From a virus, in the IMG/VR virus record IMGVR_UViG_3300015264_000033, positions 1 through 44,765 of that record: a DNA stretch of 44,765 nucleotides; one strand, written 5' to 3'. The notes below the pieces were generated by a model. That model was not told the origin of the DNA. It was given only the letters and a program-made list of their open reading frames with translations, and searched no databases. How positions within the stretch are numbered: the stretch's first letter is position 1; each line of letters opens with the position of its first letter. A program made the position numbers and the translations under genes. Below are positions 683 through 43,784 of the stretch, piece after piece.

Positions 683-689
683 AAAGTTC

Positions 690-5229: not shown

Positions 5230-5233
5230 CACC

Positions 5234-5458: not shown

Positions 5459-5474
5459 CAGAAGGGAAAAGTTT

Positions 5475-5995: not shown

Positions 5996-6081
5996 TGCGC
6001 CTCGTCCTCCTACTCTTCACGGCGGTCGTCCTTGTGTACGCGGGCATCGCCATTTACGCGGGGTTTCAGCCGCCATGGTGA
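5995..6081 (+). CDS. 28-residue membrane peptide
   Basis: An ATG overlapping the previous stop by one base (TGATG) opens a frame encoding MRLVLLLFTAVVLVY, then AGIAIYAGFQPPW. It is essentially one transmembrane helix. Phages commonly encode such peptides, but at 28 codons chance cannot be excluded. The coupling and the hydrophobic pattern are the evidence. Confidence 0.45.
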   Translation: MRLVLLLFTAVVLVYAGIAIYAGFQPPW

Positions 6082-6087
6082 AGCGAA

Positions 6088-6486
6088 ATGATCGAAGATA
6101 AAAGCAAAGAGTTCGCCGTGATGGTCTCCAAGGTGCAAGCGATAATCGTAGAGCGCGACGCCCTCGCCGCCGAGCTGGTCGACCGTACGACAGCGAACGT
6201 GCAACTCGCCGCTATTGGTCAGCGCCAGTTCGACCGCATCCGCGAACTGACGGAATCGCTAATGGTGAAAAGCGCCAAGATAGGCGACCTGGAGGCGGCG
6301 CTGCGCGAGATACGTGATGGCTTTCTCCCCGATGGTAGTTACGCGGGGCGTCCGATATACGAGATCGCGCCATTCACTGCGGAAACGCCAGTGAAGTGCA
6401 AAGAGTGCGTCTATGACATTCGCGAGCCGAATATCTGCGAGCGTTGCGGAACGCCGCGTACTTCTGACCGGGCATCGAAGCCATGA
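6088..6486 (+). CDS. Coiled-coil protein with C-terminal zinc site
   Basis: 132 residues. A long amphipathic helix (about 1-85) suggests a coiled coil. The C-terminus has CKECVYDI and CERCG, a four-Cys zinc site. No enzyme motif. Small phage genes with this layout are usually uncharacterised. Its stop overlaps the next ATG (ATGA). Confidence 0.65.
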   Translation: MIEDKSKEFAVMVSKVQAIIVERDALAAELVDRTTANVQLAAIGQRQFDRIRELTESLMVKSAKIGDLEAALREIRDGFLPDGSYAGRPIYEIAPFTAETPVKCKECVYDIREPNICERCGTPRTSDRASKP

Positions 6487-6680
6487 CCAACGAAGATGCA
6501 TATTTCGAGATCTGGTTTCAATTGCAGCGCCGCGATCACTGGAAAAGTCTCTACGGTGACGAACCGATGCACGAAGGATGGGGCGAGGGTTTCAAAGGCG
6601 CGATGAGTAAGGCTTGGCATGCGCGAGCTAGTTTTCACGTAACACCGTCGAGTGAGTTAGAGAAGCATGCTGACCGTTAG
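6483..6680 (+). CDS. Small Trp/His-rich phage protein
   Basis: 65 residues, with W and H clustered (EIWFQLQRRDHW, HEGWGEGF, AWHARASFH). No family recognised. Coupled to both neighbours; it overlaps the next gene by 14 bases. Confidence 0.55.
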   Translation: MTNEDAYFEIWFQLQRRDHWKSLYGDEPMHEGWGEGFKGAMSKAWHARASFHVTPSSELEKHADR

Positions 6681-6876
6681 ACAATTGATCGACCGTCTCA
6701 AGAAGCTCGACCAGGGCGCCGTGGTGGCGTGGCGCGACCATGACCAATCGGAAAACGAAGTCAACGGGTTCGTGCGCTCCATCGAAGAGGCAACCGAGCT
6801 GCTGTTGACTGACACCTACATCGCGAGCGTTTTGGAACGCGACGGCAAGCGGAACGTCGTGGTGTTGGGACCATGA
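6667..6876 (+). CDS. Small conserved phage protein (TVRQLIDRLKKLD type)
   Basis: 69 residues beginning MLTVRQLIDRLKKLDQ and ending with a VVVL strand. This resembles many small phage proteins of unknown function that start with a (T/S)VxELIxxLxxLDPxA helix. Overlaps the previous gene. Confidence 0.6.
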   Translation: MLTVRQLIDRLKKLDQGAVVAWRDHDQSENEVNGFVRSIEEATELLLTDTYIASVLERDGKRNVVVLGP

Positions 6877-7008
6877 GCATGTTTTCGCCGAAATTCCAAC
6901 TATCTTTCCTGCCCGATCAGCGACTTGCGTGCGACTGCTTTACCTCTAGAAATTTCGTCGCCAGACCGAGCATAGTATTGGAATCCTCTGCAATTACAGG
7001 GGTTTTCG

Positions 7009-7176
7009 ATGGACAAGTCTGCATGGATCAGCGTCACCGACCCGGCCGAGGCCGAGGAGCTATTGGAGCGCCGCGGCGAGCTCGACACCCCGACGCTCTA
7101 CGCGCCGAATGGGCTGCTGTGGGCGGTGAGCGACGAGTACAGGGCGTGGAGGGCGGGGCGTGAAGATCATGCTTGA
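7009..7176 (+). CDS. Small phage protein, 55 residues
   Basis: ATG 7009 has AGGGG 6 bases upstream. The frame is codon-biased like its neighbours and encodes MDKSAWISVTDPAEAEELL, then a LYAPNGLLWAV strand and a WRAGRED end. It overlaps the next gene by 17 bases. The 132 bases before it (6877-7008) are AT-richer and hold no clear gene; they could carry a promoter, but I see no convincing -35/-10 pair. Confidence 0.6.
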   Translation: MDKSAWISVTDPAEAEELLERRGELDTPTLYAPNGLLWAVSDEYRAWRAGREDHA

Positions 7177-7819
7177 CTGCTCTCCGGCCAAGATCACCGA
7201 ATACCGGGAGCGGTATGGTGATGCGATCTGGCAGCTGCGGACACCGCTAACGAGCTACGCAAGGGCGCCAGGCGTGCCCTACGGCTTGGACAATGGCTGC
7301 TTCAAGACGTTCGACCGCCAGGAGTGGGACCGACTGCTTGAGCAGGCCGAAGAGGACGCGCCGGTGTTCGCGTGCCTGCCGGATGTCGTCTGTGATGCCC
7401 AGCGCACAGTGGAGCTATTCACCTACTTCAAGTCCCACACGAACGGCATACCGCGCGCCCTGGTGCTCCAGAATGGCATCGAACACGCGACCATCCCCTG
7501 GGACGACCTCGCGGCCGTATTCATCGGTGGAGACGATGAGTTCAAGTTCAGCCCCATTGCAATCCGCGCAGCTCGCACCGCGAAAATGCTCGGCAAGTGG
7601 GTGCACGTCGGTCGCGTGAATACCGCGAAGCGTGTGCGCAACTGGATCGGTCTGGCCGATTCAATCGACGGCAGCGGCATGAGCCGATACGACCACATGC
7701 TAGAGGACGTACTTGAGGCGATCCGCGACGAACATCCGCAGCACGAGCTCTATCGACGGTCTTTCGTATTGGACCCGCTCCCATGCTACGAACCTACTTC
7801 AGGAGCGCCGCATGAGTGA
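7160..7819 (+). CDS. TGT/DpdA-like base-exchange family protein (phage type)
   Basis: 219 residues. Landmarks in order: PYGLDNGCFK (D44), ACLPDVVCDA (D75), ALVLQNG (Q104), VFIGGDDEFKF (GGD 123-125, K129), KWVHVGRVNT (H149, R152) and ADSIDGSG. The spacing and the GG pocket resemble the TIM-barrel tRNA-guanine transglycosylase superfamily. They also resemble phage proteins related to DpdA, which inserts 7-deazaguanines into DNA. This is motif recall, not a search. No preQ0 synthesis genes (FolE, QueD, QueE, QueC) are in the window, so substrate would come from the host. Start GTG 7160; ATG 7169 is possible. Confidence 0.55.
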   Translation: MKIMLDCSPAKITEYRERYGDAIWQLRTPLTSYARAPGVPYGLDNGCFKTFDRQEWDRLLEQAEEDAPVFACLPDVVCDAQRTVELFTYFKSHTNGIPRALVLQNGIEHATIPWDDLAAVFIGGDDEFKFSPIAIRAARTAKMLGKWVHVGRVNTAKRVRNWIGLADSIDGSGMSRYDHMLEDVLEAIRDEHPQHELYRRSFVLDPLPCYEPTSGAPHE

Positions 7820-8075
7820 CGAGCAAGCCGATGCAATCGCACTGGCGAACAAGCTCTTGGATCAGCACTGGGCTGACCCGGATGATGATCTGCGAATGCT
7901 CTCCCGGCAATTGCTTCGCGCGCATGAGCGCATCGCGAGCCGAGACAGTCTATTGCGAGAAGCTCTGCACGAGATGTGTCATACCGTCGCGCCGCGTAAT
8001 TCCTTCACCGACTGCGTGGACAAAATTGACGCGTTGGTGGGCAGTCCCCCTACATCCGCCTCGGAGCCGAAATGA
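7812..8075 (+). CDS. Small phage protein, helical, unrecognised
   Basis: 87 residues, mostly helical and acidic at the N-terminus. ATG 7812 has an AGGAG site at about 7800-7804 and overlaps the previous gene by 8 bases. Function unknown. Confidence 0.6.
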   Translation: MSDEQADAIALANKLLDQHWADPDDDLRMLSRQLLRAHERIASRDSLLREALHEMCHTVAPRNSFTDCVDKIDALVGSPPTSASEPK

Positions 8076-8329
8076 CAAAGCAGGAAGCCTACTCTAGCCT
8101 GATCAAAGTCGCTGCCATCCTGGCTCGCGGCGAAGGCCTCATGTCACCGTACTACGATGATCACAAGTGGTACGTGACCACACCGAAGGCCGAACGGCGC
8201 CGGATCATCAGAGAAGCGGAGAACGTCGATTCGCTGTGCAAGGATTTGGCAATGCGCATCAAGGGCGCTGCCGACATTCTGCGCATCGATCACTTTCAAG
8301 CCAAATCCGGAGCGGATCATGGATCTTGA
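8072..8329 (+). CDS. Small phage protein, unrecognised
   Basis: 85 residues; basic helices (TPKAERRRIIREAENV). ATG overlaps the previous stop (ATGA). No family assigned. Confidence 0.6.
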   Translation: MTKQEAYSSLIKVAAILARGEGLMSPYYDDHKWYVTTPKAERRRIIREAENVDSLCKDLAMRIKGAADILRIDHFQAKSGADHGS

Positions 8330-8564
8330 TACCTTTGAGCAGCGAGCCGCATACATCGAACGTTGCGAGTTGGAGATGCGCGAGTGTCAGGCGAAGGTCG
8401 CAGAGAGCAAACGGCTGCAGGAACAATTTGACCAGACGATGCAACTCTGGCACCTGCAATATGAAATCTGGGTGTGGACGGAACTCGCACCACTGATCTA
8501 TCGCGGCATGTTCGATCCAACGTTCTGCCGTCCCTCTAATCCAAATTGTGATGGTGGCAAATGA
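8319..8564 (+). CDS. Small coiled-coil phage protein
   Basis: 81 residues. Residues about 5-45 form a charged amphipathic helix, then Trp-rich WHLQYEIWVW. Overlaps both neighbours. Function unknown. Confidence 0.55.
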   Translation: MDLDTFEQRAAYIERCELEMRECQAKVAESKRLQEQFDQTMQLWHLQYEIWVWTELAPLIYRGMFDPTFCRPSNPNCDGGK

Positions 8565-8863
8565 TCGCGAAATGTCAGCGCTCCCTTGAGACTACGGAAC
8601 CCACCGGGCCGCAACTCATGATCTACAACCGCACGCGCGAATGGGTTTGGGTTGGACCGATTCCGCCCGATTGGAATGCTCAGTTCGGTCCGACTACAGC
8701 GGACGAGGACAATCGGTTTTTCGCCGAGGTCAAATGGGGTGAGCAATGGGGTAAAGGTCCACCCCTGTTCGTGCGCAAAGTCCCCGAACAGAACTGGCCC
8801 TATCGCGGCGATGTGTGGCTGACGCCGCCCGTTGCTGAACCAGAAGGAAACGACCGTGGCTAA
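8561..8863 (+). CDS. Small phage protein, Trp-rich, unrecognised
   Basis: 100 residues with repeated Trp/Pro segments (REWVWVGPIPPDW, KWGEQWGKGPP, NWPYRGDVWLTPP). Probably a small beta-rich protein. ATG overlaps the previous TGA. Confidence 0.55.
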   Translation: MIAKCQRSLETTEPTGPQLMIYNRTREWVWVGPIPPDWNAQFGPTTADEDNRFFAEVKWGEQWGKGPPLFVRKVPEQNWPYRGDVWLTPPVAEPEGNDRG

Positions 8864-9047
8864 ATGGAGCCCTTTCCGCAAGATTCGGTTTTGGGTGATC
8901 TACGATCCTGCCAAAAAGCAGATCGGGGAACCAACGAAATACAAATATGAACTGCCAAAGCCAAGGCGCGGTAGCGGCAAGATCATCGTGGAAATGACTG
9001 GTTTCTATCCCGCGTCCGCACGTGAAACACCAGGAGAGCTGAAGTGA
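8856..9047 (+). CDS. Small basic phage protein
   Basis: 63 residues, GTG start with AGAAGGAA 7-8 bases upstream. A lysine-rich middle section follows FRKIRFWVIYDP. It overlaps the previous gene by 8 bases. Function unknown. Confidence 0.55.
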   Translation: MAKWSPFRKIRFWVIYDPAKKQIGEPTKYKYELPKPRRGSGKIIVEMTGFYPASARETPGELK

Positions 9048-9232
9048 CGTGCAAGGATCTCGACGAGGATTGTTTTTCGATCCATGCCGAGGGCGGCTGC
9101 TTGGCCTGCTGGCTCTATGATCCAGCGAAAGGCATGTGCCCGTTCCTGCGATCGACGCCGCAGATGTTTTTCACCGTGGTCCAAGATCCGACCAGTTGGA
9201 GCACTGCCGACACAGGTTCAGAGCATGGGTAA
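9044..9232 (+). CDS. Small Cys-rich phage protein
   Basis: 62 residues with five Cys in the first 35 (TCKDLDEDC, GGCLACWLYDPAKGMCPF), so possibly metal-binding. GTG start overlaps the previous TGA (GTGA). Confidence 0.55.
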   Translation: MTCKDLDEDCFSIHAEGGCLACWLYDPAKGMCPFLRSTPQMFFTVVQDPTSWSTADTGSEHG

Positions 9233-9392
9233 GCCAACACGTCGCCAGATCGTTTTCAACTGGTTGATGGCAGAGCCGGATTTTGCGACGAAGTCCGATG
9301 GCTATTGGGGCGGCCAGGAGGACGTTGATCGCATCGATGCTCTGCTCGCCGCTCTGGATTCAGCGAACGATGGAGAGGTGAAACATGGATAG
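9225..9392 (+). CDS. Small phage protein, 55 residues
   Basis: ATG 9225 overlaps the previous gene by 8 bases. MGKPTRRQIVFNWLMAEPDF is followed by an acidic helix. No family recognised. Confidence 0.5.
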   Translation: MGKPTRRQIVFNWLMAEPDFATKSDGYWGGQEDVDRIDALLAALDSANDGEVKHG

Positions 9393-9549
9393 CCAGATAG
9401 ATCGACTTGAAGCCGCTGAAGAAATCTTATATACGGCCTTGCGCGACAGTAGGAACGCATCTGCAATCATTCGCGGCATCGACGAGTACATCAATGCTAA
9501 GTTCGCAATACTTGTTGCGTCACAGTCTGATGCCGAGGTGAAACCATGA
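9385..9549 (+). CDS. Small acidic phage protein, 54 residues
   Basis: A short gene in the same coupled chain: ATG 9385 lies inside the end of the previous gene, with GAGAGG upstream, and TGA 9547-9549 overlaps the next ATG. The product is helical (DSQIDRLEAAEEILYTALRD). Function unknown. Confidence 0.5.
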   Translation: MDSQIDRLEAAEEILYTALRDSRNASAIIRGIDEYINAKFAILVASQSDAEVKP

Positions 9550-9728
9550 ATGATCTGACCGTCCCGGCCAGCACAGCCATCACCTTCGATCAAGGGCCGT
9601 CGGAGCCCGTAGTGCTGGTCATGAAGGACGGCCCAATCCTCTGGCATGGCAAGGAGATCACAACGTTTGAGGAGGCGGTAGGCGTGATTCGTGACATCGT
9701 TAGACTGCTCGGCGAGAGGCCTGCGTGA
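9546..9728 (+). CDS. Small phage protein, 60 residues
   Basis: Beta-rich N-terminus (VVLVMKDGPILWHGKEI) and a C-terminal helix. Coupled to both neighbours (ATGA and GTGA). No family recognised. Confidence 0.55.
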   Translation: MNDLTVPASTAITFDQGPSEPVVLVMKDGPILWHGKEITTFEEAVGVIRDIVRLLGERPA

Positions 9729-10297
9729 GCGATCCCGACCTCGAGTCCTTGGCCGATGAGGTGCGCGCTGAGCACCGGGCTTCGCAAAAGTCCAAAGAAG
9801 GCTTGCGTGGAGCAATCGGATTTTGGCGCAAAGTGGCGCGCGCCGGCCCGGATGAGTGTTGGCCATGGCTCGGCTTCACCAAGTCCAGCGGCCACGGCTT
9901 GACCTCCTACAAGAGCATGCCGATTCACGCCAGCCGCAAGGCCTACATCCTCGCCCACGGGCCGATCTCCTCGAAGGTGTGCGTGCTCCATCGCTGTGAC
10001 AACGCCGCCTGCTGCAATCCATCTCACCTGTATATAGGCACGAGGGCTGACAACATGATTGACCGTTTCGGAAATGTCGCTGCGGCGGACCGCTCGCGCA
10101 CCGGACGCAACCGCGTGCTGACCGATGAGCAGATCGAAGAGTTGTGGCAGATGCGCCGCGAGGGCAAACGGCTCAAGGACTGCGCGACGAAATTCGACGT
10201 GCACATCGCGACGATCTGCCGCTACATCACCGCGCGCCGCAAGCTCGTGCTGGCGAAAATGCAGGCTCGTAGACAGTCTGGACCTTCGCAAAACTGA
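9725..10297 (+). CDS. HNH endonuclease with C-terminal helix-turn-helix
   Basis: 190 residues. FWRKVARAGPDECWPWLG is the usual start of this phage HNH family. It is followed by ASRKAYILAHGPISSKVCVLH (H89) and CDNAACCNPSHLYIGT with the metal-binding Cys/His/Asn set. Residues 125-175 hold a resolvase-like HTH (LTDEQIEELWQMRREGKRLKD, then FDVHIATICRYI), typical for target recognition. It nicks or cuts DNA, probably as a selfish homing element. It is the last gene before the dif-like site. Confidence 0.85.
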   Translation: MSDPDLESLADEVRAEHRASQKSKEGLRGAIGFWRKVARAGPDECWPWLGFTKSSGHGLTSYKSMPIHASRKAYILAHGPISSKVCVLHRCDNAACCNPSHLYIGTRADNMIDRFGNVAAADRSRTGRNRVLTDEQIEELWQMRREGKRLKDCATKFDVHIATICRYITARRKLVLAKMQARRQSGPSQN

Positions 10298-10353
10298 CGT
10301 ATACATCTAGCGGGTTGACTCACCGAATTTTAGAAATTATTTGTAATGAAATC

Positions 10354-10381
10354 AGTACCCTAAATGTATATTATGTAATCT
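10354..10381 (+). other. dif-like XerC/XerD site (candidate attP)
   Basis: The 28-base segment matches the E. coli dif consensus at 20 of 28 positions by my manual alignment. The 14-base run AATGTATATTATGT (10363-10376) is identical and covers the whole 6-base central region TGTATA (10365-10370) and the inner half of the XerD arm. The outer XerC arm (10354-10364) and outer XerD arm (10377-10381) are degenerate, as known for attP sites of some Xer-exploiting elements. It lies in an AT-rich gap (10298-10406) directly before a XafT-like gene. The same AT-rich sequence could also supply that gene's promoter. Confidence 0.6.
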
Positions 10382-10406
10382 GCGAAATAGTGGTATTTTG
10401 GATGAA

Positions 10407-10769
10407 ATGTCCGAACGACCACCGGAAATTTACGGGATACCAATCAGTGAGTTGGCTCGCATTTGTCGAGTGAGCCTAAAGACTGCGGCGCGTTGGAAGG
10501 CTGGCGCAACCTGTCCGCCCAAAAGCGCGCTCATGTTACTGCTGGGCGACCTCGGATGCTTCGATTCAGCATGGGCGGGCTGGCGCGTTCGTAAGGGGGT
10601 TTTGCACTCGCCGGAGGGCTGGGAGATTGGCGTCAATCAGGTGTTGGCAGTGCCCTTGATGCGCGCCCAGATTGCCGCCTACCAGTTAGAGCAACGCAAG
10701 CTCGAGGCGATGCCGCAGCAACCAGAAATCGCCGACTGGCCAGAGTGGGTCTTCGAGAAACTGGCCTAG
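10407..10769 (+). CDS. DUF3653 / XafT-like Xer recombination activation factor
   Basis: 120 residues. An N-terminal HTH (PISELARICRVSLKTAARWK, residues 12-31) is followed by PPKSALMLLLGDLG, AGWRVRKGVLHSPEGWEIG (57-75) and LAVPLMRAQIAAYQLE. This order matches the small phage family (DUF3653, annotated after Vibrio VC1465). That family includes XafT of the TLC phage, which activates XerD-first recombination at dif without FtsK. Other members may simply be regulators. Its place 25 bases after a dif-like site supports the Xer role. Start ATG 10407; TTG 10398 is less likely. Family recognition is from memory of motifs. Confidence 0.65.
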   Translation: MSERPPEIYGIPISELARICRVSLKTAARWKAGATCPPKSALMLLLGDLGCFDSAWAGWRVRKGVLHSPEGWEIGVNQVLAVPLMRAQIAAYQLEQRKLEAMPQQPEIADWPEWVFEKLA

Positions 10770-10799
10770 ACTTATTGATGTATCAAAAAAGGAGGCGAA

Positions 10800-10982
10800 A
10801 TGGAAAACAAATGGGACTTCCCGGCGAGCGGCCCTGAAGTGAATGCGGCGCATAAGGCGCTGACGGCGTGGAGCGAGACGGAGGAAGGCAAAGCGGCGAT
10901 TGCGGCGGTCGGCGGAGTTCACAAATCGACCCCGCTCTGTGTCGCATTTTTGGCTGCCTGGAAGCAGGCTACTTCGCGATGA
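10800..10982 (+). CDS. Small phage protein at the end of the accessory arm
   Basis: 60 residues, helical, with a strong AAGGAGG ribosome binding site before ATG 10800. Function unknown. Its last 14 bases overlap the end of the convergent holin gene, marking the border between the two transcription directions. Confidence 0.6.
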   Translation: MENKWDFPASGPEVNAAHKALTAWSETEEGKAAIAAVGGVHKSTPLCVAFLAAWKQATSR

Positions 10983-11490
10983 TCTTATTGATTGCCGCGC
11001 TCTTGTCCGCGCTCCCCGCGCTGGATCCGAAGTAGTACGCCACAATGCCGGTCCAGGCGGTGCCTAGTGAGCCGATCAACACCAGCATCACATCGCCACC
11101 CTGCTCCGGCTTGCCTTTCCACAGCAGCCATCCCAAGACGCCAAAGAATCCGCAGGTGATGAGATACGCCAAGATCCGCGGCGTCCAGTCGTGGACCGCG
11201 ATCTCGCGCCCTCGAGCGTTGGCCGTATCGGCGTAGGCGAGCTGCTCCTCCTGGATGCCGAGCGTCTTCATCTGCACCGTGAAATCGTTCTCGGCCTTCT
11301 TGAGCGCGAGTAGCTGGTCCGGTGTCGCCGTCAGCAATGCCGCCTCCGCGCCCTTGGCGTCCCCTGGAGCGGTGCCGAGGACAGCCGATATGGCGGTAGC
11401 GGCCAGGGGGCCGAATGGCCCTCCTACGGCGAGCGCAATCGTCGGAGCGACGGTGCGCAGGACCTGCAGAGCTTGAGTACCAAAGTTCAT
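10969..11490 (-). CDS. Holin (GTA-type 3-TM holin family)
   Basis: 173 residues. One hydrophobic segment lies near the N-terminus (about 15-39). Two transmembrane helices near the C-terminus are separated by a short loop (RILAYLITCGFFGVLGWLLW and DVMLVLIGSLGTAWTGIVAYYF). The GSLGTAWTGIVAYYFGSSAGS block is characteristic of the three-helix holin family. It would form the membrane lesion that releases or activates the endolysin. Last gene of the lysis cassette, after the M15 endolysin and two membrane-associated proteins. Confidence 0.8.
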   Translation of the reverse strand: MNFGTQALQVLRTVAPTIALAVGGPFGPLAATAISAVLGTAPGDAKGAEAALLTATPDQLLALKKAENDFTVQMKTLGIQEEQLAYADTANARGREIAVHDWTPRILAYLITCGFFGVLGWLLWKGKPEQGGDVMLVLIGSLGTAWTGIVAYYFGSSAGSADKSAAINKIIAK

Positions 11491-25329: not shown

Positions 25330-28131
25330 TCATGAGACCGGATCGCCGATCATCACTTGCGGGATGTGCATACGAATCGTGATGGGGAGCGGCATGTTCT
25401 GGCGCACGCAGGTGTGGCACTCCGAATCCAAGGTCGACGGGATGCGCGTCCACAAGACGCCTTCCTGCATGCTGATCGGCGATGTGTAGGTCTCGAACGC
25501 GCGCTGCTCGGAGGGGTACATGGTCGTGAAGTCGGTGCCGGCGATGAAGTTCCGCGTTTCGGTGCAGTCCAAGTAAATGACCGGGTTCGACTTCGCGCGC
25601 ATGCGGATGGTCTCTTGGCCCTGCGCATTCAAGGACAGCGTCTCGAAGTCCGACAGATACGGCAGCCCCACCTGGACGACGCCGCCGGCAGCGGGCAACG
25701 TGATCGAACCATCCAAGCCAATCGTCACCTGGCCATTCGGCACAATGCCGGTGGCATCGATACCTAAGGTGGTCGCATCCACCAACGCCACCGCCGGCAT
25801 GCCGGCGATTTGGGTGGCCCCCGTGAACCTCAGGCGCGCGAAGGTCCAAATAGCCGTCGCGATGCCCTGCAGGGTCGCGGGGCACGGGTCTTTGAGTCGC
25901 ACCGAGACTTGCGTGGTGCTCGAGCGCGCGGTGATGAGCAGGCGGCAGCGCGCGCCCGTGGCATCGTAAATCCAGATCTCATTGCCCACATCGGCCGGCA
26001 AGAAGGTTGCCCAACCGGCAGTTCCGGACGCGTTGAGCGTGCCGACATCCCCCGCAAGCCACGACGTGCCGCCGGTCAGCACCATGGTGGTCGCCGACGA
26101 ATTCCGCCCGTCGTAGGTCAGGTTGCAGTCGAGGAACTGATAGTCGTACACCGACTTGACTTCACGGCTCGAGAGCCGCTCGACGTAGCGCATCGTCGCG
26201 CCGTTGATGGTGCGATTGATGATGGCGTAGAGCGCAAAGGCCGTGTTCTCAGGCACCACGCAGATATCCTCGAACGTGCCCTGCGTATCCCAGTGCGCCC
26301 AGCCGGTGACTTGCTGTTCCTTCAAATACGTGCAGCAGAGGAGGCCGCCATCGGAGCGCAAGGCGAAGAGCATCTGCCCGGCGGGATCGGGCTTGTAGGC
26401 AAGCCTTGTCAACTGCGTGCCGAAGGGGATCAGGTGGCGCGAATAGAGGGTGAGTTCATCGCCCTTGAACTTGTCGTACGCGAATTGGTAGATGAGGTCG
26501 CGCAAGCGCCGGCCGTCGAATTCAGCGAAGATCGCCGAGTCACCGAAGAGCACCGAGGCGCAGGTGGGATTCTGGCCGTAGTAGTTTTGCGGATCCGCTT
26601 TGATGGCCAAGGGCCCGAGCGCGGTGCCAGTTGAGCCGGGCCACAGTCGCCAGATGATGTTGGACGTGCCGATCAGCAGGTCCGATAGCGGGATCAGGTC
26701 CGAGATGGCGTTTAACTGCCGCGCATTCAAAAACGCCGCGAAGGCATCCGAGGCCACCACCGGGCTACTCACCTGAAAGTTCTTGTACTGGCTCGTTTGG
26801 CTGCCAAAAACGCCGACCGGCTGCTTCGGAGTCGCAGCAAGGACCAACCGGTCGGGGATGTAAGAGACGGCGGACGGATAGCCCTGATCGGTGCTGAAGG
26901 CGCCGAAGTTCCAGTAGGTCGTCTGCCCCAGTTGCGTGATCTGCCGGATGACGACGGTTGAGCCCACCGTCTGCCCCGCGAGAAAGGTCAAGGTCGTCGC
27001 CGCCACCGAGTACGCGGACGGCGCTTGATAGATGCCGTTCACGGTCACGAAGAACTTGGTCGGATCGGTGGTGGTGACGCCGGTCAAGGGCGTGAAGGCG
27101 GTCTGATTCGCGGTTGCGGTGAAGGTGAAGGGCCCAAACACCGTGATGGGGCCGCCGACGCAAGAGAGTGGCAACAGAGAGGGACCGCCGACGTAATTCG
27201 GCTGCACCACGGCGGTCACATGGGTCGAATCGGTGTAGCCCGTGATGAGCACGACGCCAAACCCTGAGTCCTGGTACTGCCAACTCACGCCGCAGATCGA
27301 CGCCAAGTTCGGGATCGTGCTGCCGTCGCCGTCGGTCTGCGTGCCCTGGGAGTGGCTCGGAATCCACGTGCCCGTCGCCCAGCCAGAGGCCGGTGAGGGA
27401 TTCGTGGTCGCGACGCATTTGTAGTTCTTCAAGCTCGCGCGCCGGTAGAGTCCCACCGGCGTGATCTTGGTGCCGGTATTATCGGTGAAGAGCTTGGAGG
27501 GCTCCCACGGTGGAATCTGCGAGAGATCCTGTTGCGTGAGTTGCACGAGGCCGCCGACCTGGCCCGCGTTGAAGATGGGAGAGGAGGCGGTCAGCGTCAC
27601 GGTGCCGGTGATGGCGCTCGCGAACACAAACGTGGTGCCGTCGGTGTTCTGCGGCAGGAAGGGCCCGTTGATGTAGGCACCGGGCAGACACGTGAAGGAA
27701 TTGGCCGACACCCGCTTGATCTCGTACGGCGGATAGTTCGGGTGCACCACGGTCAGGGTGTCGGTCGATTGCGCAAAGCGCAGGTTGGCTAAGTCCGCCG
27801 CGGCCCATGGCGTCGCGAAAGTCGCGCCCACCACCAGGGAACCGGCTGAGAAGACTTGGGCCGAGAGCGCGCCCACCTCGATGACATAGCTTTGGGTCGC
27901 CTTGAACACGAAGGGGAGCAGGGTCGAGGCTTTGGGCGCCTGCGTGAGGGAAGTGCCGATGAACTTGAACCCCGGGCGATTCGAGACCGGCCCCTCGGGG
28001 CGCACGAAGCCATTACGAAGGGTGCGCAGGCCAGCCGAGTAGGCGGTAAGGTCCACCCGGCCGAACAGGTACGGCGAGACCTCGCCGCGGGCGAAGTTCG
28101 CTTGCAGCGTGTAGACCGGTGTCTCGTACAT
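25330..28131 (-). CDS. Tail tubular protein B / nozzle, gp12-like
   Basis: 933 residues. The start YTLQANFARGEVSPYLFGRVDL, then YSAGLRTLRNGFVRPEGPVSNRPGF, is the hallmark opening of podovirus nozzle-type proteins. The remainder is beta-rich with many phage-nozzle features (LPFVF, VLIxQITQLGQTTYWNFGAF, PDRLVLAATP). It forms the distal tail tube through which DNA exits. Its ATG overlaps the upstream stop by one base (TGATG). Confidence 0.78.
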   Translation of the reverse strand: MYETPVYTLQANFARGEVSPYLFGRVDLTAYSAGLRTLRNGFVRPEGPVSNRPGFKFIGTSLTQAPKASTLLPFVFKATQSYVIEVGALSAQVFSAGSLVVGATFATPWAAADLANLRFAQSTDTLTVVHPNYPPYEIKRVSANSFTCLPGAYINGPFLPQNTDGTTFVFASAITGTVTLTASSPIFNAGQVGGLVQLTQQDLSQIPPWEPSKLFTDNTGTKITPVGLYRRASLKNYKCVATTNPSPASGWATGTWIPSHSQGTQTDGDGSTIPNLASICGVSWQYQDSGFGVVLITGYTDSTHVTAVVQPNYVGGPSLLPLSCVGGPITVFGPFTFTATANQTAFTPLTGVTTTDPTKFFVTVNGIYQAPSAYSVAATTLTFLAGQTVGSTVVIRQITQLGQTTYWNFGAFSTDQGYPSAVSYIPDRLVLAATPKQPVGVFGSQTSQYKNFQVSSPVVASDAFAAFLNARQLNAISDLIPLSDLLIGTSNIIWRLWPGSTGTALGPLAIKADPQNYYGQNPTCASVLFGDSAIFAEFDGRRLRDLIYQFAYDKFKGDELTLYSRHLIPFGTQLTRLAYKPDPAGQMLFALRSDGGLLCCTYLKEQQVTGWAHWDTQGTFEDICVVPENTAFALYAIINRTINGATMRYVERLSSREVKSVYDYQFLDCNLTYDGRNSSATTMVLTGGTSWLAGDVGTLNASGTAGWATFLPADVGNEIWIYDATGARCRLLITARSSTTQVSVRLKDPCPATLQGIATAIWTFARLRFTGATQIAGMPAVALVDATTLGIDATGIVPNGQVTIGLDGSITLPAAGGVVQVGLPYLSDFETLSLNAQGQETIRMRAKSNPVIYLDCTETRNFIAGTDFTTMYPSEQRAFETYTSPISMQEGVLWTRIPSTLDSECHTCVRQNMPLPITIRMHIPQVMIGDPVS

Positions 28132-30411: not shown

Positions 30412-31428
30412 CTACGAGACCTGCGCCTCGGTGTTCAACAGCTGATCGCAACGACGGATCGGCACGCCCTCGAACCCGAGTTCGAACTGGTTCAAGGCGG
30501 GCTGCACGGTGACCGCATTGGCGGATTTCGTGAGCCCCTGCAGGCGCAAGAAGCTGTAGACGGTGCGGTTCATGTAGAACACCGGCGTACAGCCTTTCAG
30601 CGACGGGATGCGATCGAGTGACCGGCTCATCAGCGAGATGATGTCGGGCGGCGACGTGTTGGTGGTGAGCGCCGTGACCGACAAGTTCGGGATGCGCACC
30701 GTGTAGCGCCAGTCACGCAAGGCCAGGCCCGGCTCCCACACAAAGCGATCCTGGTAGGCGCGCATGAACCCTGAGGTCATGCCGACCGCAGAGCCCGCAG
30801 CGGCCGTCTGCACCGTCTGCAACCCGTAGTCCTCGTGCGTGAGGCCCGCCTTCGTGCCCTTGGGGAAAATCCCGCACACCGTGTCCTCACCCCAGCCCGC
30901 GAGCCACACCGAGGCCTGGACCGAGCCGCCGGAGCCGCCGCCTGAGATGATGTTCTGCGCGTTGGTGGCGCCCGAGATGACGCCGTAGCGCGGGGACAAT
31001 CCTAAGAACCGTTCGACGTTGACCGCGGTGTTGCCGTAGAAAAGCGTCTGCGTGAACTGCTGGTTCATCGCCTCCAAGAACGGCTTGGCTTCCGACAGCC
31101 GAAGCGCGGCGACATTGCCGTTCAGCTGGGCGAGTTTCTCATCGATGACTGACCAGCCTTCCAAAATGGCGCAGGCGTCATCGACTTGGCCCACGGTGGA
31201 CTTGGACGGCGTGACGCCAGTATTCAGCTGCCGGAAGGCCACGTTGGGAAGGCCGGCGCGCTGGGTCGTGCGCATGCCGGTGGGCAAGTTCCCCTCGACC
31301 CACAGCATGTCGGAGAGGATCTCGTTTTTCTCGTTCAACAGCTCCGCGATGTCCGGGATGCTGCCATCCGGGTCCATGCGCTGCGCAAAGTCCGAGAGGG
31401 TGAAAACTGTACCGCCAATGGTCGCCAT
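30412..31428 (-). CDS. Major capsid protein (BPP-1-like)
   Basis: 338 residues. TLSDFAQRMDPDGSIPDIAELLNEKNEIL is the opening of the BPP-1-like major capsid family. It continues with LPTGMRTTQRAGLPNVAFRQ, LFYGNT, KAGLTHEDYG and a PIRRCDQLL end. HK97-type fold by family. Flanked by scaffold and cement genes. Confidence 0.85.
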   Translation of the reverse strand: MATIGGTVFTLSDFAQRMDPDGSIPDIAELLNEKNEILSDMLWVEGNLPTGMRTTQRAGLPNVAFRQLNTGVTPSKSTVGQVDDACAILEGWSVIDEKLAQLNGNVAALRLSEAKPFLEAMNQQFTQTLFYGNTAVNVERFLGLSPRYGVISGATNAQNIISGGGSGGSVQASVWLAGWGEDTVCGIFPKGTKAGLTHEDYGLQTVQTAAAGSAVGMTSGFMRAYQDRFVWEPGLALRDWRYTVRIPNLSVTALTTNTSPPDIISLMSRSLDRIPSLKGCTPVFYMNRTVYSFLRLQGLTKSANAVTVQPALNQFELGFEGVPIRRCDQLLNTEAQVS

Positions 31429-32955: not shown

Positions 32956-34908
32956 TCACGCCGCCTGCTTCTGCTGGCCATTGAGCAACTGATCGAGCGC
33001 GTTGCTACCGCCGACCGGTGTCTGCCCTAGATTCTTCGCCGCTTGGCTTGCCGCCGTAATAGCGTTTTGCTGTTGCTCTTGCTGCTGCGCTGCGGCCTGC
33101 TGCTTCTGGCGCTGATCGCGAATCTGCTTGACCACATCGTCCGCGACAATGCACTCAGGTGGCACCCCTAAGCGGTCCGACATGATGGCGACCGCTTTGT
33201 CGAAGTCGAACTTATCGAGAATCTCGGGCTTCGCTTCCGCGAGCTGCAGAATATACGTCGTGACCTGGTTGATGCCCTGGATCTCGGCCACGCGCACCGC
33301 TTGCGCCAGAATCGAGATGTACTGGATGTCGAGCTTGACGCCCTGCAGTGCGGGCGGTGGGGGCGGCAGATACATCTCCATGCCCTTCGGCACCGCTTCG
33401 TTTCGCGCGATGTGCTGCCACGCGAGACTTGAGCGTTTGACGGCGAGCGAGAACACTTGATCGATCAAGGGCTCGAACCATTCGCCATTCAAGCGATCGA
33501 GCAGCGGCCCGAGTTCAAGGAGCTGCTCCTGCTTGCGCGCATCGATCTCGGTCGCGGTAATGCCGGCCTTCAGCGTGTCGCCCAACGAGCGCATCATCTG
33601 GAAGACATCTTCGTACATGCCCGCTTTGATGCGCTGGCGCGTGTCCTGCAGGTCCTGCAGCATCTCGGCGAGTTCCGGCTTCACTTCGTAGAGCGGCTTT
33701 AAGCCAAAGGTGGTCGCGGAGGTCGACTCCAGCCACGTGATGTCGCCCGGCAGTTGCGACACCGTGGTGCGCTTCATCGCGGCATCGCCGATCAGCGGCG
33801 GCTCGACTTGCTTGTCGATCGCCTGCATCTTGCGCTTCTGCTGCACCATCAATTGCTTGGCATCGCCCAAGCAGTACATCGCGGGCGAATGGCCGTAGAC
33901 GTTATCCGAGTTGGTTTCCCAGCGCGCGACCTTCACCGGATCATCGGGATAGCCCAGCACGCCCAGGAGCGTGTCGGGATCGCCGCCTAATTCGTAATAG
34001 ACACTGCGCGTCTGCATGCCCTTAAGTCCCAGCGCGCCCTGCTCGTACTCCTCATTGGGCTCAATCACGTGGATGACATCAATCCACGTCTCCCAGGTGC
34101 GCGCGCGCCACTGCGCAATCGTCGAGGGCGAGATGTTGCCCCACGTGGGGTCATCGGGATCGTTGGGGTCTTCCACGAACTTTTGGATGACCTGGCGCAC
34201 CGTCCACTTGAATTTGCGAATGAAGGTGTCGACCTTGCCCTCATCGTTCTGCGAGCACCAGTACTCTCCAATGGTGTAGGCGATGACGTTGATGAGTTTC
34301 TGATGCTTCTTTTTAGGGTCATACGGCACTTCGTACACGCCCAACGCCGCGGTACCGAAGGCGCCGATCTCCGAATACGCACTCGGCATCTGGCGGTAGA
34401 AGTTCGACTTCTGCAAGATGCGGTGCACGCCATCGGTCGCCTTCTCGCACCACTCGGCAACGCCCGGCTGATCGTAAATGTCGTCATCCTCGGGGCGCAG
34501 GCGAAACCACGGGCGCGAAGGACTCGTCATGCCCGACATCAACCCGGCCGACATCGTGCGCAGCGCCAAGAGTGGGCAGTTATCGACGATGTACTGCATC
34601 TTCTTGTTGCCGCGATTGGGCACGCCGCCATCGTCCAACCACCGTGAGCGGTACGGGATGAAGTTGTTCTTGATGTCGAGCCAGTGCGAGCGCCAGGTCT
34701 CGCGGTCCAGGTTCATGTAGTTGCGGCGCATCTCGTATTTTGTTTTTGCCGCCTGCTCAATCGGCACATTGTCGAGGCCGCCCTTGCCTGCGCGTCCCTT
34801 GCCGTTGCCGCGTCGCTTATTGCGTGCGCCCTTAGATCCGTCGCGCACATCGGGGGATGCGCCGAGGAGCTCGCCAGCCGAGGGTGCGTTTAGGTCGACG
34901 AAGCTCAA
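32956..34908 (-). CDS. Portal (head-to-tail connecting protein)
   Basis: 650 residues. Family features of the podovirus head-to-tail connector are present: NCPLLALRTMSAGLMSGMTSPSRPWF, YSEIGAFGTAALGVYE and VARWETNSDNVYGHSPAM, followed by DAMKRTTVSQLPG-like and GITATEIDARKQEQ segments. A Gln-rich C-terminus (about 600-650) is typical. The N-terminal 45 residues are basic and low complexity. It forms the dodecameric DNA channel. ATG overlaps the upstream stop by 4 bases. Confidence 0.9.
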   Translation of the reverse strand: MSFVDLNAPSAGELLGASPDVRDGSKGARNKRRGNGKGRAGKGGLDNVPIEQAAKTKYEMRRNYMNLDRETWRSHWLDIKNNFIPYRSRWLDDGGVPNRGNKKMQYIVDNCPLLALRTMSAGLMSGMTSPSRPWFRLRPEDDDIYDQPGVAEWCEKATDGVHRILQKSNFYRQMPSAYSEIGAFGTAALGVYEVPYDPKKKHQKLINVIAYTIGEYWCSQNDEGKVDTFIRKFKWTVRQVIQKFVEDPNDPDDPTWGNISPSTIAQWRARTWETWIDVIHVIEPNEEYEQGALGLKGMQTRSVYYELGGDPDTLLGVLGYPDDPVKVARWETNSDNVYGHSPAMYCLGDAKQLMVQQKRKMQAIDKQVEPPLIGDAAMKRTTVSQLPGDITWLESTSATTFGLKPLYEVKPELAEMLQDLQDTRQRIKAGMYEDVFQMMRSLGDTLKAGITATEIDARKQEQLLELGPLLDRLNGEWFEPLIDQVFSLAVKRSSLAWQHIARNEAVPKGMEMYLPPPPPALQGVKLDIQYISILAQAVRVAEIQGINQVTTYILQLAEAKPEILDKFDFDKAVAIMSDRLGVPPECIVADDVVKQIRDQRQKQQAAAQQQEQQQNAITAASQAAKNLGQTPVGGSNALDQLLNGQQKQAA

Positions 34909-37680: not shown

Positions 37681-39132
37681 TCAAGGGCGCGAGAGCGGAT
37701 CGTAATCATGCTTCGTCGAACTCCCGCCAGCGGCGGGACCCAAGTCAAACGGGAACAGCGCCTCACGCGTATCGCGGGTCGCCGCCACCGGAAAGGCGTG
37801 CGTGTAGACCAGCGCATCGGCTAAGTCCGGAGATCGCCCCAACCGCGCCTTGATCATTTTTTTCTCTTCGATGACGATCTTATCGCCCTTGTAGCCGTAG
37901 GTGACGGTCGAGAGTTCGGCCACGATCTCATCGCAATCGGCCGGGAGGCTGGCGCCGGTCATCATGTGCTCGCACGCCGTCCAGTAGCACTCGGCGCGCT
38001 TGTTGAAGAACTTCGGATCATTGGGCTTGCCACTGCCGTACACCGGAATGACCGAGTAGCCCTCCTGGCGCAAGATGGCCATGGGACCTGCGCCGTAGCC
38101 GCCGGACGCGTCCATTTGGATGGAGTCCGCGCCCCACTTGGTCGCCATCTCGCCCAAATGCCCGGCGATGAACACGGAATCCATATTCCTGAGGACAATC
38201 GGCTTGAAGTAGGTTAAGCCCTGGCGCGGGAAGAACACCGTCCGGTCATCGCCCTGGTCCGCGATGTCGGCGCCGATGATCTTGGGGGCCCAGTCATAGG
38301 CGCGCAGGTGGATGTGGCGCCCTAAGCAGTCGCGCACCGCATCGGCTGAGATCAATTGATTCACGCCCTGCGTCGGGAAGCGCGCGAGGATATTGATCAT
38401 CACGAACGGGTTGTCGCGCCCGTACTCCGCAATCTGCTGCCGGCAGTACTCCGCATCGATGCGCGGCGTGCGCTTAAGGTCATCCGGGTCGGCCGTCACC
38501 TCGTAGACCTTCCACATGTGCCGGCGCATGATGACCGCCTCGTACAGGGCGCCCGTGTTCGATGTGGTGTTGCCGGCGAGGATGATATGGGCATCGATGC
38601 CCTTGCCCTGCAGCACCGCTTCGGCGGTGCGCACGATGGGGACCGGAATGCCGCCCGCCTCATCGATCAGGAAGAGAACGTTGTCCGCCCATGTGCCGGC
38701 CAAGGTTGAGCCCAGCTCCTCGGTTGAGGCTGACTGCTGAAAGGTGCGCGCGGTCATGAACCAGGTGTCGGGGCTCGCTTTCAAGCTGATGCGCTCCGCC
38801 GTCCACTCGAATAGCCCCTGCAGCAGCACGCAGACGTTCTGCCACTTCGCCATCTCGGCCCAGAGATTATCCTTCAAGTTCTTGCCGGTGATCGAGAGCG
38901 CGGCGACTTTGGGGTACTTGCGCGTCAGCAGAAAGTTCCACGCGAGCCACGCAAGGACGGCCGTCTTACCCGGGCCCTTGCAGCAGGCCATCGCCTGCCG
39001 TGGGTTGTGCGGGAAGTCGTTCAACACGTCCTGCTGCCACAGGTCGGGCTCGATGTGGAAGAGTTCGCGCACCATCAACAGCGGCGAGTTGCGATACGCG
39101 ATGATCTTGTCGACGGCGAGGGCGAAGGTCAT
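37681..39132 (-). CDS. terL: Terminase large subunit
   Basis: 483 residues. ATPase: an atypical Walker A, CKGPGKT (51-57), and Walker B LIDEA (155-159). RNase H-like nuclease: D289 in IIGADIADQ, D341 in IQMDAS, and D436/D439 in PDLADAL. It pumps DNA into the prohead and cuts concatemers. Start ATG 39132 overlaps the small-subunit stop (ATGA); the longer open frame is out-of-frame reading of that gene. Confidence 0.92.
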   Translation of the reverse strand: MTFALAVDKIIAYRNSPLLMVRELFHIEPDLWQQDVLNDFPHNPRQAMACCKGPGKTAVLAWLAWNFLLTRKYPKVAALSITGKNLKDNLWAEMAKWQNVCVLLQGLFEWTAERISLKASPDTWFMTARTFQQSASTEELGSTLAGTWADNVLFLIDEAGGIPVPIVRTAEAVLQGKGIDAHIILAGNTTSNTGALYEAVIMRRHMWKVYEVTADPDDLKRTPRIDAEYCRQQIAEYGRDNPFVMINILARFPTQGVNQLISADAVRDCLGRHIHLRAYDWAPKIIGADIADQGDDRTVFFPRQGLTYFKPIVLRNMDSVFIAGHLGEMATKWGADSIQMDASGGYGAGPMAILRQEGYSVIPVYGSGKPNDPKFFNKRAECYWTACEHMMTGASLPADCDEIVAELSTVTYGYKGDKIVIEEKKMIKARLGRSPDLADALVYTHAFPVAATRDTREALFPFDLGPAAGGSSTKHDYDPLSRP

Positions 39133-39572
39133 TGAACAGTCGGCTGCTGCACCACCGTCCGCTGATCCGCCGCCGCCAGTAAATCGACGAGCGTGATGCT
39201 GCCGCGCACTTCGATCTTGGAGGTGTAGAGGCCTAACAATTTGCCGAGTTCGCGAGCCGACATAATTCGCGCGATATGCGATGGACCGCCGTCGCATTCC
39301 TGACGCGGGTCCGTCATCACGCGTGCGTGAAAGCTACGGATATCATCGCCGTTGAGTTCGAGGCGCTTTTCTGCTAGGAGGCAACGACGTCGCACCTCGT
39401 CCAGCACCCGAACATTTCTTAACAGGCGCGAGCCCTGCACATCAGCCGTGTCCTCCGAGTATCCGGCTTGCTTCGCAGCTTCCGTCGCATTGAACTCAAG
39501 CAGGTAATGCGCAATGAACTTGCGTTGCTGCGCGCTCAGTGCTTTAGCCACGACCTTGTGCCCCCTCCACAT
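39129..39572 (-). CDS. terS: Terminase small subunit
   Basis: 147 residues. LSAQQRKFIAHYLLEFNATEAAKQAGYS is the DNA-binding helix-turn-helix start of the Terminase_2 family, followed by GSRLLRNVRVLDEVRR. It recognises the packaging site. ATG 39572 has GGAG upstream; GTG 39551 is an alternative. It overlaps the upstream gene by 29 bases. Confidence 0.88.
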   Translation of the reverse strand: MWRGHKVVAKALSAQQRKFIAHYLLEFNATEAAKQAGYSEDTADVQGSRLLRNVRVLDEVRRRCLLAEKRLELNGDDIRSFHARVMTDPRQECDGGPSHIARIMSARELGKLLGLYTSKIEVRGSITLVDLLAAADQRTVVQQPTVQ

Positions 39573-41470: not shown

Positions 41471-41749
41471 TCATCGCCACCGCCTTTGGTACGCCGAGCG
41501 CGGCTTTTTCGGCCGTGCGGTCGCGATGGCTTTGGCCTGCGCGGTGAGCCAGTCGGGGGCATTGGGCTGGGGCTTGCTCGCGCTTCTTGCTCCCGCTTCC
41601 GCTTCCGTTGCTCCCGCTTCCGCCGTACTGCTCCCGCTTCCCCTGGGGGTTTCACCCCCATAGGGGTAGCAGGAGCAAGTACCCAGAGCAGTTTCCGGGG
41701 TAGTGAGAGCAGATTCTTGGGTAGTGGGAGCAGGTAGCGGGAGCATCAT
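41471..41749 (-). CDS. Small protein after the primase-helicase
   Basis: 92 residues, Pro/Thr/Ser/Glu-rich with a basic end (PNAPDWLTAQAKAIATARPK). ATG 41749 overlaps the primase stop (ATGA), which favours this frame over three others open here. The DNA has repeated TGCTCCCGCTTCC-like units and a strong hairpin, so the coding call is moderate. Confidence 0.45.
   Translation of the reverse strand: MMLPLPAPTTQESALTTPETALGTCSCYPYGGETPRGSGSSTAEAGATEAEAGARSASKPQPNAPDWLTAQAKAIATARPKKPRSAYQRRWR
41640..41666 (-). other. Strong two-part hairpin inside the gene after primase
   Basis: Inner stem GGGGGT/ACCCCC (41645-41650 with 41654-41659) with a 3-base loop; outer stem CCCCT/AGGGG (41640-41644 with 41662-41666) with a 2-base bulge. 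Eleven base pairs in total, GC-rich. No T run on either side. It might be a regulatory RNA structure, a replication-linked site or a transferred repeat. Confidence 0.5.
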
Positions 41750-43635
41750 TTTGACCCTCTCACGAGCCCTGACTTGACCTGCCGATTGGCGAACTTGCCG
41801 ACGGGGCCATCCGTCACCCGGCCATCGAGCCGCAGTCGTCCCAAAGCCTCCGCCAACTCGCGCGGGGAGAAGTCCTGTGTGAGCTTGTCCTGGCGCATTT
41901 TCTTCGGCAGGTAGTCCGGCGACGTGCGCGAGTCCGTGGTTCGAACATCCACAGCCACGAATTTATCGAGCGCCTTAAGAATGACCTCCTCCGCCGCCTC
42001 ATTACGCCGCCCGAAGGTATACCGATCGCTGAACGAACCGGGCTCCAGGGCGGCTTCGAACACGCCCTGCCGATAGATCAGCTTGCGATAATCCTTGATG
42101 GTGTAATTGGTCTTGCGCTTCGCGATGTAGCGCACATCCGGATCCGCCTCTTCGCCGCCACCCTCCTCCGTCTGGTCGGGGAGCTTCATCCCCATGTACC
42201 AGCGCATCCGCATCGAATTTTCCCAAGCCGTCGAGCCTGAGAATTCGGAGTCCTCCTGCTTGCCGGGATGCGCGAGCAGCACCGTGCTATGCAGCCGGCC
42301 GTGCGCAAGTCCTGTCATGCCATTGACGAAGGAGGTCACATGGTGGCGGTCGTTCTCCTTACCACCGAAGGTCTGCCCGATGTTGTCGATCAGGGTCACA
42401 TCGGCCTGATAGTCATTGACCTGAGCGACGAGCTCGCCGTAGAGGCCGGTCCACTTGGGCGCCCCGTACTCGGCGTAGAAGAGGGTATTGTCCAAACCTG
42501 AGCGCGGCTCGATCACGAGCTTGCCCTCAAGATCGGCGAGGGTCGCGCCCAAATAGCGGCAGATCGCAATCTGTCGACGCCAGAGTTCATCATGGTCGTC
42601 CTCGCAGGCCCAGAAGAGCACCTTGAGCGGCGTCTCGATCGCGTCCAGGAAATTCTTGCCCAAAGCCATCGCGGTCGCGAGCGTCTGGGCGAGCAAGGTC
42701 TTGCCGATGCCGCCGCGGCCGGCCAAGAGCGTGGTGCCCGCGCCCAGCCAATGAGCCACCGCCCACGGCCGATCGGGGGGCGTGCTCGCCTCGAGGTCCA
42801 GCCAACGCATGATTTGCCGAATCTTGACCGGAGCCGCCGGCGCCAAGAGCCATGCCGAGACGTCGCGCTTCTCGGCGAGCGCATCCGCCAGATCCCAGCC
42901 GCCGGGAAGATCGGCCGCGAGCGTCGCGGGGTCCACAATGCGTGCGGACTTCGCCACGTCCTTCAAATGCTGCTGCATCCAGGCCATCGCCTTGCGGCCC
43001 GCGATATCGCAGTCGGGCACCAAAATCACCTCGCGCCCTTTGAGCGGCATCAAATCCGTCTGCCCAGTCGAGGCGGCGCCCCCGGGCCAGGTCGTTGCCA
43101 AGTGAGAGGGAAAGAGCTTCTGTGCGGCCACCGCCGTCTTCTCCCCTTCCACGATAATCACCGGCAAATTGGGCTCGTTGGTCAAGCGGTCGAGTTGAAA
43201 GAGCGGCCGCGGATTCGGGTGATGTCCCCATTTCCAGCCATCGACGGTCTTGGTGATGGGGCGGATTGTCTTCTTGCCCCCCGGCTGCTCCCAGCGGCAG
43301 ACCCGCATGATGAATGCGCCAGCCGCGTTGTGGTAATCCCAATACGAGTGATACGGCCCGAGTTCGAAGTGCTCGGTGAAGACATCGCTCCTGTCCCGGT
43401 AGCCATTCAGATAAGCGCCCTTGGCCTCGAGCGCCTGGGCGATTGACTTGTAGTCGCACCCGGCATAGCAGCGCAACGCGAGCCCATCGTCCCCATCGGC
43501 GAGAAACAAGGATGGATCCTTGTCCTCGTGCGCCGGACAGCAGGCCTTCCATCCTGTCGGCGAGCGTTTGGCCTTGTTGAGAAGCCCTGCACATTGCTCG
43601 GCCGTCCAGGTTGCCTGTTGCATTCGCGTGTTCAC
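41746..43635 (-). CDS. Primase-helicase (zinc finger, TOPRIM, RecA-like ATPase)
   Basis: 629 residues. N-terminal CHC2-like zinc site (C33, H36, C56, C60). TOPRIM domain with VIIVEGEKTA (E163) and ILVPDCDIAG (D208, D210). RepA/RecA-type ATPase with Walker A GRGGIGKT (306-313) and VTLIDNIGQTFGG as Walker B region; AHPGK later. The C-terminal 100 residues are helical, HTH-like. It primes and unwinds the phage origin; it is the only replication protein seen. GTG 43635 overlaps the preceding stop (GTGA) and was preferred over ATG 43623. Confidence 0.85.
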   Translation of the reverse strand: MNTRMQQATWTAEQCAGLLNKAKRSPTGWKACCPAHEDKDPSLFLADGDDGLALRCYAGCDYKSIAQALEAKGAYLNGYRDRSDVFTEHFELGPYHSYWDYHNAAGAFIMRVCRWEQPGGKKTIRPITKTVDGWKWGHHPNPRPLFQLDRLTNEPNLPVIIVEGEKTAVAAQKLFPSHLATTWPGGAASTGQTDLMPLKGREVILVPDCDIAGRKAMAWMQQHLKDVAKSARIVDPATLAADLPGGWDLADALAEKRDVSAWLLAPAAPVKIRQIMRWLDLEASTPPDRPWAVAHWLGAGTTLLAGRGGIGKTLLAQTLATAMALGKNFLDAIETPLKVLFWACEDDHDELWRRQIAICRYLGATLADLEGKLVIEPRSGLDNTLFYAEYGAPKWTGLYGELVAQVNDYQADVTLIDNIGQTFGGKENDRHHVTSFVNGMTGLAHGRLHSTVLLAHPGKQEDSEFSGSTAWENSMRMRWYMGMKLPDQTEEGGGEEADPDVRYIAKRKTNYTIKDYRKLIYRQGVFEAALEPGSFSDRYTFGRRNEAAEEVILKALDKFVAVDVRTTDSRTSPDYLPKKMRQDKLTQDFSPRELAEALGRLRLDGRVTDGPVGKFANRQVKSGLVRGSK

Positions 43636-43784
43636 CGTCGTCCATACCGACGAACCTTGGCGTAGACATTCAGCACCCAGATGGGGAGCCAATTCGCATT
43701 GCGCCGAATCCAATTGGGATATCGCGTATCGATGTCGGCCGTGCCGTTGGTGCTCCAGCGTTTCACGTCAGCCCCATCCGACAT
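43632..43784 (-). CDS. 50-residue Trp-rich protein preceding primase
   Basis: ATG 43784 opens a frame for MSDGADVKRWSTNGTADIDT, then YPNWIRRNANWLPIWVLNVYAKVRRYGRR without its last part being disordered. Trp and Arg content and the GTGA overlap with primase suggest a real gene, although no clear ribosome binding site is seen. Function unknown. Confidence 0.5.
   Translation of the reverse strand: MSDGADVKRWSTNGTADIDTRYPNWIRRNANWLPIWVLNVYAKVRRYGRR

Follow-up and report, generated by a model that had tools for sequence, protein, structure and literature searches.

A dif-like site and a XafT-like gene as a candidate Xer integration module in a tailed soil phage and its relatives

The site and the gene at 10354-10769

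The window analysed here is the whole 44,765-base record IMGVR_UViG_3300015264_000033 of IMG/VR, a soil phage with 62% G+C and no end repeat. Positions 10354-10769 hold a short sequence resembling dif, the chromosomal site bound by the host recombinases XerC and XerD, and next to it a gene related to xafT, whose product switches on these enzymes for TLCphi, a satellite phage of the cholera bacterium. The features of this locus are:

10354..10381, + strand: predicted phage attachment site (attP), a dif mimic with a degenerate XerC-side arm at 10354-10364, the core TGTATA at 10365-10370 and a XerD arm at 10371-10381
10346..10374, + strand: weak promoter-like match that would drive the XafT-like gene, its -10 hexamer TATTAT overlapping the boundary of core and XerD arm
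10407..10769, + strand: XafT-like gene for a 120-residue protein with a helix-turn-helix (HTH) and a DUF3653 domain (PF12375 above the cut-off), homologous to the TLC DUF3653 protein

The site reads AGTACCCTAAA-TGTATA-TTATGTAATCT and is the only dif-like site in the window: it matches the dif of E. coli at 20 of 28 positions, and the next best place reaches 16/28. A score of 20/28 was attained by none of 200 first-order random windows, and the chance of such a match within the local AT-rich 120 nt alone is ~0.0009; the 14-mer AATGTATATTATGT occurs once in the window and in none of 100 shuffles. An earlier note on this DNA had described a 14-base identity to the dif core that includes the complete central region, and this is confirmed by the overall score, the intact core (6/6) and the unique 14-mer. 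It had also called the outer arms weak, which is true of the degenerate XerC arm (6/11) but not of the XerD arm, which is fairly good (8/11). The overlapping promoter-like sequence is a consensus match only and near chance, one being found against 0.6 expected.

The gene starts with the ATG at 10407 (a TTG at 10398 is possible), leaving 25 bases between site and start codon. Its product matches PF12375 (DUF3653) with 23.9 bits against a curated cut-off of 22.4 (8.6e-7) and has a weak HTH match at the N-terminus; the DUF3653 score falls under the cut-off in two relatives tested. Alignment of profiles (hhalign) with the DUF3653 protein of TLCphi, which we take to be XafT itself, extends over HTH and domain with probability 95.3, E 2.2e-8 and 32% identity. 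The family similarity suggested earlier for the 120-residue protein is thus upheld: on sequence grounds it is a genuine XafT-family relative and a predicted Xer activator. An AlphaFold model (mean pLDDT 87) combines the HTH helices with a small beta unit, and its C-terminal helix is long; a Foldseek search of the PDB with this model gave nothing at E <= 0.001, just weak HTH-domain similarities, and tblastn of the window protein and of one relative against isolated phages gave no match.

The module in other phages and at chromosomal dif

Scans with the window protein yielded 29 further IMG/VR records. Upstream of the gene there is a dif-like site with one good arm and the core, in the window as well as in 28/29 relatives; in the 29th (L250) the site is ~800 bp away. 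Among the first 22 records the site adjoins the gene and, a few weak exceptions aside, is the sole dif-like site of the record; in eight records added later as a test it lies within ~130 bp of the gene in seven. The spacing from site to start codon, with start codons chosen by eye, is 23-38 bp over nearly all relatives, and on the other side of the site, where this is resolved in relatives, an HTH gene similar to that of the window ends 24-60 bp before it. The pairing of site and gene is not coincidence, and that such different phages have preserved the linkage with a nearly constant spacing is a sign of selection. The carriers include portal families phrog_332, 156, 12082 and 1216, and most of the records have no virion gene in common with the window. 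Since at least four unrelated portal families carry site and gene, this is a portable module, common to unrelated tailed phages and not special to one podovirus type. Two portal relatives of the window (G012 and G015) were rejected as carriers, the gene being lacking in both. Overlaps of 118-127 bases between the ends of four records (G005, G018, G023, G027) are so long that these genomes are probably complete and circular.

The sites fall into two mirror-image classes. In class A (24/29 records) a good XerC arm lies next to the gene; the core reads TGTATA in most of them, and what stands in the far position does not qualify as a XerD arm. This is the layout published for attP-TLC, in which XerC arm and core are like those of dif and the XerD arm is degenerate (PMC4246890; PMC5357621). 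Class B comprises five records (the window, L002, L044, L243 and L247) in which a XerD-like arm lies next to the gene, the far, XerC-side arm is degenerate and the core is reversed too, so that the arms of the window site are the inverse of the TLC type. Among the 24 class A records, 17 have 23 bp between site and start codon and two have 24 bp; the five of class B have 24, 24, 25, 25 and 30 bp. An HTH motif, KTAxRWK, read by eye from the alignment, is found in 5/5 class B proteins as against 2/24 of class A (Fisher p 0.0002, uncorrected for relatedness). Descent of class B as a single lineage was unsupported: the tree has three changes, at least two of them forced.

Relatives at bacterial dif sites were found by searching the phage protein profile in ~800 genomes, drawn from the class and the orders surrounding a Gallionellaceae genome and subsequent hits, two small order-level searches contributing one genome (G846). 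A dif or hybrid dif lies within ~1.5 kb at 28/32 fetched loci, where 0.003 per locus is expected from one match in 1.29 Mb of control contigs. The hits in G513 and G487, elements of uncertain type, have no dif nearby. Class A elements with both ends seen (G044, G180, G205, G474, G649, G747, G540, G579, G846) have a full dif where the gene lies, and at their opposite end the XerD arm is degenerate. Class B elements (G390, 10.9 kb; G431, 7.9 kb; G532, 6.5 kb; G663, 8.1 kb; G581, 8.1 kb) likewise have a full dif on the gene side, with a degenerate XerC arm at the other end, so that in both classes the junction next to the XafT-like gene restores a complete dif. One class B element, L201 (G390:C49) at 309-11234, is a PM2-like prophage between two dif-like sites with the XafT-like gene at one end; this genome encodes a P2 capsid protein of PM2 type and a protein matching packaging ATPases. 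Since class B elements stand at chromosomal dif, relatives have entered dif with the site layout of the window.

Some class A elements at chromosomal dif are tiny (~0.9-2 kb, some in tandem), with seemingly little beyond the XafT-like gene, and seem to be minimal Xer-exploiting elements or satellites (G180:C1:1474429-1477616, G205:C22:8719-9649, G044:C28:122630-124381, G474:C1:84432-85988, G162:C1:2356733-2359657, G846:C84:20407-21923). In a further small, unannotated element, on the second replicon of Photobacterium sp. DA100 (L098, 7819-11452), a hybrid dif2-like site and another dif-like site enclose a XafT-like gene.

The surrounding genome and its recombinase genes

Other features of the window are:

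9725..10297, + strand: HNH endonuclease (PHROG/Pfam HNH) with a C-terminal HTH, bordering the degenerate side of the site
10969..11490, - strand: holin-like gene adjoining the module, a putative role based on sequence character and place
25330..28131, - strand: tail tubular B-like protein (phrog_376, E 2e-164)
30412..31428, - strand: major head protein (phrog_212, E 1e-71)
32956..34908, - strand: portal (head-tail connector) of epsilon15/BPP-1 type (phrog_332, E 4e-140; 38% identity to epsilon15)
37681..39297, - strand: terminase large subunit (phrog_2; Xanthomonas phages 44%)
41746..43713, - strand: primase/helicase (phrog_239) of a mosaic replication region, within the region replaced in contig L260
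44299..44465, - strand: YdaS/Cro-like regulator (PF15943, E 5e-13), its 3' part secure, its 5' part joined to a foreign segment

Judged by these family matches, the phage has the virion genes of a podovirus of epsilon15/BPP-1 type, and the BPP-1-like head proposed earlier is borne out by portal and head together with the phrog_376 tail. The holin-like gene, which has no Pfam match, is 59-75% identical in five other module-carrying phages, and G012 contains a partial 51% match. A tail-region protein at 22351-24870 has a GH5 cellulase domain and a chitobiase C-terminal-like domain, and a 12/24-bp tandem repeat array at 1580-1781, inside an early open frame, encodes WDAARAAA-like repeats.

At 99.9% identity, an IMG/VR contig, L260 (record G003), matches window 1-4604 and 28817-41559; it connects window position 1 with 41559 via 2.65 kb, divergence from the window beginning at ~41559. 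The phage genome is thus circular, since L260 bridges the window ends. In the join an HTH_3 repressor and a small HTH (Cro-like) gene point away from each other, followed by other genes that by position, and without a convincing family match, look like replication genes; in the same place the window has the primase/helicase and the YdaS-like regulator instead of this repressor segment. The difference is that of an ordinary mosaic immunity/replication region, and window 41560-44765 compared with L260 4605-7257 presents a clean swap of it between two near-identical phages. In the last ~300 bases of the window (44446-44765) the C-terminus of a bacterial band-7/stomatin protein is fused in frame to the YdaS-like regulator. 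A repeat of this junction, which would have pointed to a genuine att site, was looked for elsewhere in the window and not found; being absent from the L260 join as well as unrepeated, the fusion is probably an assembly chimera.

The window has no match to PF00589 or PF00239 and the L260 segment bridging the small missing part contains no integrase, so that the earlier statement that no integrase is visible holds for the window and also for the missing stretch with its repressor, Cro-like and other genes. Among the relatives, no tyrosine or large serine integrase was found in 21/22 records searched, and PF00589 was found neither in the window nor in 20/21 relatives; a short resolvase-type gene occurs in G027 alone of the 22. 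L058 (G019; 3695-4636 and 9356-10198) is the one relative with a tyrosine recombinase, and an IS1595-family transposase gene adjoins the HTH gene of its module.

Proposed route of integration, alternatives and known systems

The best explanation, and one we consider likely, is lysogeny through the Xer system, with 10354-10769 as the integration module of an integrase-less temperate tailed phage. Of the earlier proposal of integration through host XerC/XerD, the site, the protein, their linkage and the relatives at dif give support, while the integration step itself we infer. Xer catalysis in dimer resolution normally requires FtsK. The circular phage genome would carry the dif mimic as attP; on infection host XerC and XerD would bind attP and synapse it with chromosomal dif, and the XafT-like protein, from a gene 25 bp away, would activate Xer catalysis in place of FtsK, acting on XerD or, with the polarity of the window, perhaps on XerC. 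Crossover in the shared TGTATA core would then insert the circular genome at dif. At the xafT-side junction a host arm and the better phage arm would restore a working dif, and the other junction would retain the degenerate arm; with dif restored, chromosome dimer resolution would stay intact, an advantage for the lysogen. Tailed phages would in this way integrate at dif and presumably be excised by the same route. As a conjecture, the site possibly overlaps the promoter of the gene, and integration could alter the upstream sequence and so expression.

With moderate confidence this can be extended to a portable lysogeny cassette, composed of HTH gene, dif-mimic attP and XafT-like activator at near-fixed spacing, that passes between tailed-phage families with no relation to one another and takes the place of the integrase. 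It would exist in two mirror-image forms, that of the window (XerD arm kept, XerC arm lost) using the same activator family, and the full dif would always be re-formed on the activator side.

Several observations weigh against integration of tailed phages at dif. A scan of GTDB representatives found no member of the XafT subfamily of the window, and no module turned up when genomes were scanned for the neighbouring holin-like gene. The tailed records are all in free form with one arm degenerate, and G019 is the sole record with a tyrosine recombinase among the 22 searched. Of the homologous prophages at dif for which the earlier note proposed to search, neither genome scan found a tailed one; what was found are the protein relatives at chromosomal dif, including the PM2-like prophage with the inverse layout. 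The polarity of the window site is opposite to that of TLC; being a mirror image of its attP, the site does not allow the XerD-first order of TLC to be simply transferred, so that of the earlier comparison with TLC XafT the family relationship stands and the order of strand exchange does not. Finally, near-perfect dif-like sites (92-93% over 26-28 nt) occur in tailed phages taken as lytic (rV5-like, Av-05 and others; KM190144.1 27593-27619, LN881727.1 1834-1859). A dif mimic alone is therefore no proof of integration, and the weight falls on site, gene and chromosomal relatives together.

The rV5-like phages, which are not known to integrate, and the circular genome without an integrase would also agree with a plasmid prophage whose site and XafT-like protein resolve genome dimers via XerCD (like cer, psi and loxP) with no insertion. 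We regard this as improbable: one arm is degenerate in 29/29 phage sites and the one-arm layout is found also at real insertion junctions of relatives, the TLC homologue serves integration, and the window showed no evident partition gene, though no systematic search was made. Still less probable is an ordinary role of the DUF3653 protein as HTH regulator, with the conserved 28 bp as its operator or promoter and a merely secondary likeness to dif; the HTH domain, the near-fixed spacing to the start codon and the overlapping promoter-like match would suit such a regulator, but an operator does not need to resemble dif arms and core, relatives picked by protein profile alone stand at chromosomal dif (28/32), and a promoter role is compatible with that of an attP. 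That the module is a relic or passenger in a phage now virulent, or integrating elsewhere by an undetected recombinase, is very improbable, for although no lysogens were found, G019 retains a tyrosine recombinase and the right end of the window enters a band-7-like gene fragment, the linkage of site and gene at near-fixed spacing persists in phages that differ greatly, a sign of selection, and the band-7 junction is unrepeated in the window and lacking from the L260 join.

Integration through Xer has its closest known counterpart in TLCphi, a Vibrio satellite and TLC-type integrative mobile element exploiting Xer (IMEX). The likeness includes a DUF3653 protein with N-terminal HTH encoded beside the attachment site on the good-arm side, a dif-mimic attP of one good arm, core and one degenerate arm, and the lack of an integrase; in the TLC-Kn1 junction record the DUF3653 gene lies on the XerC side, beside the chromosomal dif junction. 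However, TLCphi, a small satellite, has no virion genes, unlike these tailed phages of ~39-70 kb where complete, and the window attP has the opposite polarity, with a gene that begins and does not end at the site. VGJphi, CTXphi and other filamentous IMEX also combine a dif-mimic attP and host XerCD with no integrase. They are single-stranded DNA (ssDNA) filamentous phages of XerC-first type, in which the attP core differs from dif or attP works as folded ssDNA, and their schemes include no XafT-like gene (PMC4246890, PMC5357621); the window, with a 6/6 core and a single site, has neither a core differing near the XerD side nor paired inverted attP. PM2-like tailless prophages at dif (NO16 'Asemoviridae', PMC9966536; Corticoviridae-like) share double-stranded DNA (dsDNA) and dif-like sites but have double-jelly-roll capsids and small genomes and are not tailed. 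One of the PM2-like type, G390:C49, has both the site layout of the window and a XafT-like gene. The epsilon15/BPP-1 podoviruses resemble the window in portal, head and tail genes. They integrate by their own tyrosine integrase, in contrast to the window, which has none.

Accounts of XerCD hijacking exist for filamentous phages, satellites, islands and tailless phages; none for tailed phages was found in the literature searched, most subscription journals lying outside the search. As far as that literature shows, its probable use by tailed dsDNA phages, the occurrence of one cassette in phages with unrelated virions, and the mirror-image site are new. The two site classes would provide a direct test of the target of the XafT-like factor and of the start of recombination from either side of dif. 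If integration does take place by this route, many of the tailed phages at present regarded as virulent or as lacking an integrase would be temperate, with dif as their attachment site.
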